A stretch of 32,571 nucleotides of DNA. It comes from an uncultured Eubacteriales bacterium (GTDB lineage Bacteria; Bacillota_I; Bacilli_A; RF39; UBA660). Shown piece by piece: positions 30,113 to 32,571 of this stretch. The stretch covers positions 1 through 32,571 of the forward strand of contig ONSL01000009.1 in assembly GCA_900320505.1 (NCBI GenBank), in the 5' to 3' direction. Both the position numbers and the translations under genes were made by a program. The stretch's first letter is position 1, and each line of letters starts with the position of its first letter. The notes beneath the pieces are model-generated. The model saw only the letters and a list, made by a program, of their open reading frames with translations. It was not told the origin of the DNA and searched no databases.

Positions 30113-30874
30113 TTAAGCCTCCACCCTATCTAATTTTCCATCAACAAATATATATTTTAATGTATATTCTTTGTCTTTATATTTTTCTTTACTTATTAAA
30201 GTTATTTCATTTCCATTTACTTTGCAATCAGTAATATTTCTTTCTATACTGTCAAAAGAATCAGGCTCTTCTCCGACAAATATTTTTTGATTTTTTAAGT
30301 AAGTAAATATTTTATCATTATATTTAAATGTTTTAAACTCATCATTTGATGTAAATAACTCATTTACTTTAGATGACATTTTATCTTCACCGATAACTAA
30401 TGTTCCATCTTCATTTTCTATATCATCTTTAGTTAAGTTTGCAAAAGCAATATACTCTTTTATCTCTTCTGTAAGATTTCCTTTAGAAAGATCTGTCTCG
30501 TATGGAAATGATGAATTAATAACTATCTTATCAAGCAAATACTTATATTCATCTATTAGATTTTCTTTTTTATCTTCTTCATTTTCTTTTATAACAGGCA
30601 CTTTACTTTCTTCATTTTTTATAGTCTTTCCATCGCTAGTTAATTTTTCTCCAGTATAAACCATATATGATCCATAACCAATAACTGCAAGAAGTATAAG
30701 TATTACTAAATTTTTAATTCCATTTTTTATCTTTAAACCTTTTATTTGTTTTTTATATATTTTAACAACTTCACTTGATGCTTCCTTCTCTACTCTTTTC
30801 TTTATATATTTATCTATTTCATCTTTATAGTCATCTATATTAAATTGACTATCTTCTTTTTTCTTTCTTGCCAT
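30113..30874 (-). CDS. Single-pass membrane protein with extracytoplasmic domain, unknown
   Basis: 253 residues from ATG 30874. A highly charged cytoplasmic segment (1-50, beginning ARKKKEDSQF) leads to one membrane helix (about 53-73), a Lys/Glu linker (80-108) and an extracytoplasmic domain (about 109-253). The end of that domain is beta-rich, with strands around GNEITLISKEKYKDKEYTLKY. I do not recognise the family; it could be a small sensor or anti-sigma-like protein. GGGGAGG before ATG 30874 and the promoter at 30932-30904 fix the start, because upstream in-frame starts would precede the transcript. First gene of a two-gene operon. Confidence 0.78.
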   Translation of the reverse strand: MARKKKEDSQFNIDDYKDEIDKYIKKRVEKEASSEVVKIYKKQIKGLKIKNGIKNLVILILLAVIGYGSYMVYTGEKLTSDGKTIKNEESKVPVIKENEEDKKENLIDEYKYLLDKIVINSSFPYETDLSKGNLTEEIKEYIAFANLTKDDIENEDGTLVIGEDKMSSKVNELFTSNDEFKTFKYNDKIFTYLKNQKIFVGEEPDSFDSIERNITDCKVNGNEITLISKEKYKDKEYTLKYIFVDGKLDRVEA

Positions 30875-30893
30875 AATAAATCCTCCCCTCAAC

Positions 30894-30903
30894 ATGTGCA
30901 CAT
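30894..30903. promoter_or_regulatory. Perfect palindrome at the transcript start (candidate operator)
   Basis: ATGTGCACAT is a perfect 10-bp palindrome beginning immediately after the -10 of the promoter at 30932-30904, so it covers the expected transcript start. In such AT-rich DNA a GC-centred palindrome here is noticeable. No regulator is identified. Confidence 0.35.
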
Positions 30904-30941: not shown

Positions 30942-31835
30942 TTACTTTGTTAAATTCTTTTCAAAGTTTCCTTTTACGTTAACTCCATCAAGTTTTATTA
31001 AGAAAGCATTTGGATCAAGTTCATCTATATTTTCTTCTAATATCTCTAATTCATATTCTGTACATACTATTATTGTTATATAAGTTTTAGAAAATAGATA
31101 TCCTCCACTTGCATCAAAATATGTTGAATCTCTTTTAAGTACTTTTCTTGAAAAATCAATTATTTTAGAAGGTTTCTCTTTTGTAAATATCATAACTTCA
31201 GTACATATATTTTGTTTATGAAGTTTATCTACTATATATGACTGTATAAGTATAAATAAAACTGAATATATCATTGTTACGTATCCATATAAAAGTCCTA
31301 GTACTGAAAATAAACATATGTTAAATATAAGAGTAAATTTACCAACCGATATATTTTTATTTTTTATTGATACTAGTATTCCTAAAAGTTCTGTCCCACC
31401 TGTTGTTGATGAATTACTTAATATTATTCCTGAACCTGCTCCTGTTATTAAGCCACCTATTAATACCATTGTTGACAAACTATCAAGTACTGGAGTATTT
31501 GGAACTGGTATAATACTTAAGAAAAGCGTTAATATTATAACTGTATAGATTGTTCTAAAGCAGAATACCTTATTTGTATGTTTATATGCTATTATGAAAA
31601 GAGGAATATTAATTATTAAACTAATAAATCCCGATATATCAAATGTACTTTTAATATTAAGTATATTAAAAAGAAATGTTCTAATTAACTGTGAAAGGCC
31701 TAAAAAACCACTACTATATAAATTATTAGGAACTATAAATACATTTATTGCAAAAGCTGTTATAAGTGCAGCAAAAGTTGTCTCAAAAAGTTCTTTATAA
31801 GTCCATTTAAAAGTTTTATTTAAAAAATCATTCAT
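30942..31835 (-). CDS. YitT-family membrane protein (DUF161 + DUF2179)
   Basis: 297 residues from ATG 31835. About six membrane helices (residues 12-215) have the family pattern: AFAINVFIVPNNLYSSGFLGLSQLI near the start and a Gly-rich GLITGAGSGIILSNSSTTGGTELLG segment in the middle. A C-terminal cytoplasmic DUF2179 domain follows (about 225-290, ending in DPNAFLIKLDGVNVKG). YitT proteins are widespread in Bacillota and thought to be transporters, but the substrate is unknown. An in-frame ATG three codons upstream (31844) lies within the AGGATGGTG Shine-Dalgarno region, so the later one is preferred. Its promoter is TTGAAA-N16-TAAAAT (31881-31854). No clear terminator follows; the next operon's promoter begins just downstream. 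Confidence 0.93.
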   Translation of the reverse strand: MNDFLNKTFKWTYKELFETTFAALITAFAINVFIVPNNLYSSGFLGLSQLIRTFLFNILNIKSTFDISGFISLIINIPLFIIAYKHTNKVFCFRTIYTVIILTLFLSIIPVPNTPVLDSLSTMVLIGGLITGAGSGIILSNSSTTGGTELLGILVSIKNKNISVGKFTLIFNICLFSVLGLLYGYVTMIYSVLFILIQSYIVDKLHKQNICTEVMIFTKEKPSKIIDFSRKVLKRDSTYFDASGGYLFSKTYITIIVCTEYELEILEENIDELDPNAFLIKLDGVNVKGNFEKNLTK

Positions 31836-31853
31836 AAGCACCATCCTACCAAT

Positions 31854-31881: not shown

Positions 31882-31927
31882 AGAAAAATATTTTATAAAA
31901 TATTTATTTGTAATATAATGTAATTAC

Positions 31928-31999
31928 GTGAGTATAGTATAATGGCTAGTATGAAGCCTTCCCAAGACCTTGATGCGGGTTTGATCCCCGTTGTTAAAC
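31928..31999 (+). pseudogene. Degenerate tRNA-Gly(CCC)-like sequence
   Basis: A 72-base stretch can be threaded on a tRNA with normal geometry. Acceptor 5' strand: 31928-31934. D stem GTA/TAT with loop TAATGGCTAG including the invariant GG: 31937-31952. Anticodon loop TTCCCAA, anticodon CCC: 31959-31965. Four-base variable loop. T stem GCGGG/CCCGT with loop TTTGATC: 31975-31991. The D arm and T arm look like real glycine tRNA sequence. However, the anticodon stem has only 3 of 5 pairs, the acceptor about 5 of 7 counting G-U pairs, and the invariant T-loop C56 is T. A TATAAT sits at 31914-31919, 9 nt upstream. I read this as a decayed tRNA-Gly whose 3' end now runs into phage-repressor-like coding sequence. 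A chance resemblance cannot be excluded. Confidence 0.5.
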
Positions 32000-32211
32000 A
32001 GCAAGTTGATTGCGAATCTGGATATGATTGTGTAGTTATGGTTAATGGTGATGATGCAACCTTTAAAAGAGTCATAAAGCAAGATAATGGAATCATTTTA
32101 AAACCTCTTAATAACAATTATGAGCCCTACTCTTTCAGCAATGAGGACCTAGAAAAAAAGCCTGTAAGGATACTTGGAAAAGCTGTAGAAGTTAGAAGAA
32201 AATTAAAGTAA
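31942..32211 (+). pseudogene. Fragment of an S24 peptidase/LexA-like repressor
   Basis: An 89-codon open frame resembles the C-terminal half of S24-family self-cleaving repressors. It has VVKQQVDCESG, then VNGDDATFKRV with the catalytic-Lys position, then NNNYEPYSFSNEDLEKKPVRILGKAVEVR. This matches the closing strands of the LexA/CI-type catalytic domain. The N-terminal DNA-binding domain and most of the linker are missing, with an in-frame TAA at 31921-31923. A SMKP at its start looks like the catalytic Ser motif (SMxP), but it is encoded by the D-arm of the tRNA-like sequence and the following spacing is about two residues too long, so this may be coincidence. No Shine-Dalgarno precedes ATG 31942. 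Probably a prophage or mobile-element remnant. Confidence 0.65.
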
Positions 32212-32228: not shown

Positions 32229-32571
32229 GTGAATTATGGAAAAGAAAAATACAATACAAAAAAAAATGATAATATAAAGTTAGACCAGTCATATATTAAC
32301 TACCATAAAATAATTAATATGAAATTGCCTTATAAATTTACTTATTTAGACGATTGGTTGCTAAAGAAATCTAAATTATTACTAGAAGAAACAAAAAATA
32401 TATCAAAAAATACAAAAAGATATAAAAAATATGAAAGAGGTACAATAATAAAAGTAGATTTTGGTGTAGGATTAGGTTCAGAAATGTCTGAAGTACACTT
32501 TGCAATAGTTCTCAATAAATATGATAATCCTAAAAATAATATATTGACTGTTATACCTCTTACATCAAAGA
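32229..32571 (+). CDS. PemK/MazF-family toxin (3' end beyond window)
   Basis: Partial, about 114 codons to the window edge. The C-terminal part is a clear PemK/MazF start: KKYERGTIIKVDFGVGLGSE, then SEVHFAIVLN and ILTVIPLTSK. Members are usually ribosome-independent mRNA interferases. An N-terminal extension of about 65 residues (with LDDWLLKKSKLLLEETKNI) precedes it, as in a longer Bacillota subfamily. The start is uncertain. The continuous frame begins at GTG 32229 with a poor RBS. A more natural ATG at 32236 (MEKKNTIQKK) is one frame off, and a run of nine A (32258-32266) separates the two frames. No antitoxin gene is seen upstream; it could lie downstream or be absent, as is common for this subfamily. 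Confidence 0.8.
   Translation, partial: MNYGKEKYNTKKNDNIKLDQSYINYHKIINMKLPYKFTYLDDWLLKKSKLLLEETKNISKNTKRYKKYERGTIIKVDFGVGLGSEMSEVHFAIVLNKYDNPKNNILTVIPLTSK

Follow-up and report, generated by a model that had tools for sequence, protein, structure and literature searches.

A truncated tRNA-Gly(CCC) gene joined to a phage repressor fragment as a probable scar of mobile DNA

The window analysed here is the entire 32,571-bp contig C38 (ONSL01000009.1) from the genome of an uncultured Eubacteriales bacterium of the RF39 lineage, and close to its right edge lies a relic of a tRNA gene that runs directly into a fragment of a phage repressor gene. Here, we show using sequence comparison within the genome and with its relatives, complemented with tRNA, domain and family profile models, that the first 65 nucleotides of a tRNA-Gly(CCC) gene at its ancestral site are followed by the C-terminal part of a CI/LexA-like repressor of the S24 family, and that a second, intact copy of the tRNA gene is present on another contig, C84. 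The locus is probably the scar of mobile DNA, in which phage repressor DNA was joined to the tRNA gene at nucleotide 65 and the loss of the tRNA was tolerated. The features on which this reading is based are the following.

31886-31905, no strand: perfect 20-bp palindrome AAATATTTTATAAAATATTT, 100% self-complementary, at the left edge of the block common with C84
31892-31919, plus strand: tRNA promoter, TTTATA, 16 nucleotides, TATAAT; the same in the intact C84 copy
31928-31992, plus strand: tRNA-Gly(CCC) relic, nucleotides 1-65 of the gene; 97% identical to the C84 copy and 81% to the tRNA-Gly(CCC) of the sister species
31942-32211, plus strand: fused open frame of 89 amino acids beginning MASMKPSQDLDAG, its first 17 codons tRNA-derived
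31993-31996, plus strand: tRNA/repressor junction; tRNA identity stops at 31992, full-length repressor homology starts from 31991-31996
31994-32211, plus strand: C-terminal ~72 codons of a phage CI/LexA-like repressor, frame intact to the stop at 32209-32211

The initial annotation of this stretch, made from its letters alone, had proposed a decayed tRNA-Gly, and the comparison with the organism's own genome bears this out and specifies the anticodon as CCC. In a BLAST search of the locus against that genome, window positions 31885-31992 matched the minus strand of C84 (6988-7095) at 105 of 108 positions (97%), over a block that comprises approximately 43 bp of upstream sequence, including the promoter and the palindrome, and the first 65 nucleotides of the tRNA. 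The C84 copy is called by ARAGORN as tRNA-Gly with anticodon CCC and is the single intact tRNA-Gly(CCC) of a genome in which glycine tRNA genes with anticodons GCC, TCC and CCC were all found. In local alignment, positions 31928-31999 scored 115 against the C84 tRNA, whereas 2000 random 72-mers drawn from the window scored 23 at most, so that the resemblance to a glycine tRNA is well above random; the match to the other glycine tRNAs of the genome was poor (20 for tRNA-Gly(GCC) and 31 for tRNA-Gly(TCC)).

Three substitutions separate the relic from the C84 copy: G40A (31967), which disrupts pair 30:40 of the anticodon stem, C56U (31982), which sits in the T loop, and U60C (31986). The tRNA of the sister species, whose genome (G003) served for comparison, shares the C56 and U60 state of the C84 copy, and the window copy is therefore derived at both positions. 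The 3' acceptor strand and the CCA end are missing from the relic and other sequence stands in place of the strand, so the defects named earlier in the anticodon stem, the acceptor stem and the T loop were correctly identified. No tRNA gene is called in the window by ARAGORN, nor by Rfam at the gathering score: the Rfam tRNA model yields 23.9 bits at 31931-31995, below the cut-off of 29 bits, versus 55.8 bits for the intact C84 copy. Folding against shuffled sequences gave z = +0.5 for the relic versus -2.7 for the C84 copy and -3.0 for that of G003, and the relic does not form a complete cloverleaf with acceptor stem and CCA. The promoter's -10 box, TATAAT, is present at 31914-31919, 8 nucleotides ahead of tRNA position 1 (9 had been counted before). 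The AT palindrome stands upstream of this promoter, in a divergent promoter region shared with a YitT-family gene, and is kept in both copies of the genome.

Downstream of the relic, the fragment matches Pfam Peptidase_S24 (PF00717, E=3.6e-11) and the transcriptional repressors of PHROG 4 (E=2.5e-11). Relatives were searched for in IMG/VR contigs and in 84,980 species genomes (GTDB). Over its C-terminal 72 residues the fragment is 65-74% identical in amino acids to the closest of the CI/LexA-like S24 repressors carried by prophages of Bacilli and Clostridia, including those in the further relatives G006, G010 and G017 and on IMG/VR contigs, and repressor relatives are also found on GTDB contigs. 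The intact relatives combine a helix-turn-helix (HTH) domain with the S24 domain, reside in phages or prophages and typically have a tyrosine or serine integrase gene close behind them, whereas the window copy is devoid of the HTH domain, the cleavage site and the catalytic-Ser segment. The N-terminal half of the repressor, with HTH and cleavage site, was found neither upstream nor anywhere else in the genome; a search of phage records gave no match, and no tRNA-fused relative was present among those found in the species genomes. One contig with a related gene, JAGBDV010000023.1 (32.3 kb; L114, L132), has both ends overlapping inside the repressor gene and is therefore probably the complete circular genome of a temperate phage.

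The fusion of the two parts is as abrupt as the initial annotation had described it. Nucleotide identity to intact repressors is 9-10 of 27 to the left of 31996 (~37%, chance-like) and 40-46 of 54 to its right (~78%). This jump indicates that the repressor is cut at its catalytic-Ser motif and that the sequence to the left is tRNA, not repressor. The Pfam match begins at SMKP (residue 3), but true homology to the relatives starts only from approximately residue 18/19 (31994-31996), and the alignment to full-length S24 relatives does not extend into the tRNA-like stretch. A GTT repeated across the junction leaves the exact joining base ambiguous by ~3. The resemblance to the tRNA, the resemblance to S24 repressors and the sharpness of the junction are all beyond chance. 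Pattern scans of IMG/VR for the tRNA-S24 junction, for the tRNA itself and for a T-arm beside KQQxDC codons gave no match.

What occupied this place before? Three genes lie near the fusion.

30113-30901, minus strand: conserved neighbour gene (MARKKK...), its protein 65% identical in G003
30942-31844, minus strand: gene for a membrane protein of the YitT family (PF02588/PF10035), upstream of the tRNA relic
32229-32571, plus strand: PemK/MazF-like toxin gene (PF02452, E=6e-6 over the N-terminal 46 positions), cut by the contig end

On contig C73 of G003, an intact tRNA-Gly(CCC) directly adjoins the homologue of gene 30113-30901 in the same arrangement, and the window therefore holds the ancestral tRNA-Gly(CCC) site. 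The YitT-family gene that separates the neighbour gene from the tRNA in the window is absent between them in G003. On the other side, the PemK/MazF-like gene noted earlier beside the fusion is confirmed, and together with the phage repressor it places two foreign-looking genes at a tRNA site. Its remaining half was found on no other contig of the genome, and no relatives of it were found in IMG/VR. Full-length PemK-like paralogues exist in this genome (G000; L135:3690-4205, contig C59) and in G003 (L136:3594-4118, contig C51), beside a gene that we take to be phosphoketolase-like in both cases; their chromosomal setting differs from that of the window gene.

On the 3' side of the G003 tRNA-Gly(CCC) lies a member of a ~90-amino-acid family that has no Pfam match and reaches as many as nine copies in a genome of this genus. 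Its members usually stand 60-150 bp downstream of a tRNA (Gly with CCC, TCC or GCC, Leu, Thr, Pro, Trp) or of the transfer-messenger RNA (tmRNA), on the same strand, and some carry stops (copies include L065:7181-7444 on C73 of G003, G000 C56:234-461 and C57:32397-32636, L175-L178 and L180-L182). Possibly the family is an edge gene of elements that integrate at tRNA or tmRNA genes.

The loss of one tRNA-Gly(CCC) copy should be harmless, because the intact CCC copy and tRNA-Gly(TCC) remain. tRNA-Gly(TCC) should read GGG codons by wobble. In most other species of the genus no CCC gene was seen. The whole promoter block is found with both the relic and the C84 copy. From ~4.1 kb on, C84 is not syntenic with G003 and holds dispersed repeats; the intact tRNA lies in this segment, flanked by such repeats, and was therefore probably duplicated through mobile DNA. 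Both ends of C84 (L005:1-240 and L005:8324-8429) are dispersed repeats that recur where many other contigs of G000 and G003 end, and the left one presumably ends in a TnpB C-terminus and the right end of a transposon, which it resembles. Near the intact tRNA, L005:8014-8242 (minus strand) is a fragment with stops, 88% identical to a sequence on G003 C13 and 75% to one on C41 of another relative, G007; it looks like the remnant of a putative plasmid mobilisation gene. A plasmid search with the tRNA side of C84 returned short matches only.

We infer delivery of the S24-PemK DNA by a mobile element, the death of the tRNA gene and the following order of events. Phage-derived DNA starting inside a CI/LexA-like repressor gene would have been joined to nucleotide 65 of the tRNA, and this joining would have removed the 3' acceptor strand and CCA and left a tRNA pseudogene. 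Of the three substitutions, two affect key positions; all three may have been gained later or received with the incoming DNA. The repressor would have been left without the DNA-binding half, the site of self-cleavage and the segment that holds the catalytic Ser. With both parts truncated, neither tRNA nor repressor is expected to work. The loss would have been tolerated with an intact tRNA-Gly(CCC) under the same promoter on C84 and with tRNA-Gly(TCC) as well. Two routes could have brought the parts together: site-specific integration that used a short or degenerate core, with later decay, and illegitimate joining at the GTT microhomology, with later deletion. We lean slightly toward illegitimate joining and deletion, because the usual signature of integration is missing.

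The initial annotation had taken the locus for the scar of an element that entered at a tRNA-Gly. Its location at an ancestral tRNA site is upheld by the synteny with G003, while an integrating element as the maker of the junction is not demonstrated. As at the left attachment site (attL) of prophages and genomic islands that tyrosine integrases insert into tRNA 3' halves, phage-derived DNA here occupies the 3' half of a tRNA gene that is intact in the sister species. In contrast to such junctions, the tRNA identity ends at nucleotide 65 and the tRNA is not restored, and the junction falls inside a repressor gene, which is not normally the edge of an element; the relatives typically have an integrase beside the repressor. 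Several observations weigh against the proposed scar of mobile DNA. Neither a right attachment site (attR) nor a direct repeat or an empty site was found, and only C84 shares the tRNA sequence in this draft assembly, which is 82% complete in 88 contigs. No matching integrase was found; the contig ends 360 bp after the S24 fragment, and the integrases elsewhere in the genome are of other types or unassigned. The upstream block identical in C84 is not accounted for by ordinary integration at a tRNA 3' end. Finally, all three substitutions fall in the last 26 bp of the common block (~1.4% by chance if uniform), and this clustering hints at an arrival of the right part together with the element instead of later drift.

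An unlikely alternative is that an element integrated through a short core, destroyed the tRNA and brought, or relied on, the tRNA-Gly(CCC) of C84; a single insertion could even have one end in the window and the other in C84. The principle is published as tRNA-dependent lysogeny, in which integration breaks a host tRNA and a second copy rescues it (Guerrero-Bustamante & Hatfull 2024, PMC10865867), and integrases of this kind have been described only recently, in actinobacteriophages (PMC10865867). Likewise, the host tRNA in the window is broken and stands beside phage DNA, and a second tRNA with the same isotype and anticodon and an identical promoter is present on a contig whose non-syntenic, repeat-bearing part begins at ~4.1 kb. 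However, the C84 copy bears the host promoter block and so resembles a host duplicate, not a foreign tRNA, and tRNA-Gly(CCC) is probably dispensable, as argued above. C84 moreover has the full tRNA and promoter and shows no synteny in its neighbours that would link it to the window as the attR partner, and the genome yielded no integrase of the type seen in the relatives.

Somewhat less probable still is that the junction is a true attL of an element whose phage attachment site (attP) lies within the repressor gene, such that integration at tRNA-Gly(CCC) splits the repressor and leaves its C-terminal half at attL. Precedent exists in the integration-dependent immunity of mycobacteriophages of Clusters G, N and P, with attP within the repressor gene (reviewed in PMC9262239), and here, too, the repressor gene is truncated exactly at a tRNA junction. 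All three tRNA mismatches lie to the right of the anticodon loop, a common place for crossover, and their clustering at the right end of the common block is a hint in the same direction. G40A also introduces the acidic residue (Asp/Glu) found behind SMxP in the S24 family, at the family's length from there to KQQ. A family profile built from 30 repressor relatives argues otherwise. The tRNA-encoded DLDAGLIPVV scores -10.7 bits on it, barely above random peptides (P ~0.05, as ~5% of 10-mers from real proteins reach this score), breaks an invariant Tyr and an invariant Asp (30/30) and would set a Pro within a beta strand. When the tRNA is changed at random at three places, 18% of the outcomes score as well as the window. 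The known systems restore the tRNA at attL, whereas the tRNA is broken here; the 5' DNA-binding half is missing from the genome; the relatives' repressors contain no tRNA-like sequence, and the pattern scan of IMG/VR revealed no such attP. Since an integrase usually follows the repressor in the relatives, attP is probably elsewhere. It is very unlikely that both ideas apply together, with attP inside the element's own repressor, so that integration beheads the repressor and kills tRNA-Gly(CCC) while the duplicated tRNA compensates. Neither tRNA-dependent lysogeny nor integration-dependent immunity is established for this locus.

An assembly or binning artefact that joined tRNA and S24 sequence from different molecules is slightly less probable again: the genome is an 88-contig draft and the junction lies near a contig end, but three sites distinguish the window copy from that on C84, and the known S24 genes have no tRNA-like stretch able to give a shared k-mer at the junction.

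The profile of the 30 relatives also rejects the tRNA-like stretch as real S24 coding sequence. The open frame across the junction noted earlier is real, but a shared frame is itself not beyond chance; it needs no explanation, being by estimate a ~1-in-10 event (a ~1-in-3 chance of frame times a modest chance of no stop). That the tRNA was captured as the functional 5' coding end of an S24 mini-protein, with SMKP as its catalytic Ser motif, much as the initial annotation had suggested as its stranger option, is scarcely credible: the open frame does pass from the tRNA into S24 codons without stop, and the tRNA contains an ATG and is preceded by its promoter, but SM and the conserved Cys lie 21 residues apart rather than the 19 found in 30/30 relatives (2 too long, matched in 0/30), the invariant Tyr and Asp are lost, no Gly-Asp/Asn precedes the Ser to give GDSMxP at the family spacing, and there is neither a DNA-binding domain nor a Shine-Dalgarno-like sequence ahead of the ATG. 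The SMKP codons are unaltered host tRNA sequence and are not encoded by the G003 tRNA, and the motif, likewise not beyond chance, is a coincidence.

In conclusion, the scar of mobile DNA that we favour is an instructive example of an already known kind at a tRNA gene. The loss of a tRNA gene to mobile DNA can be followed cleanly in it, as the ancestral site, the surviving duplicate and the truncated repressor are all identified, and it would matter more if the junction were an active attL.
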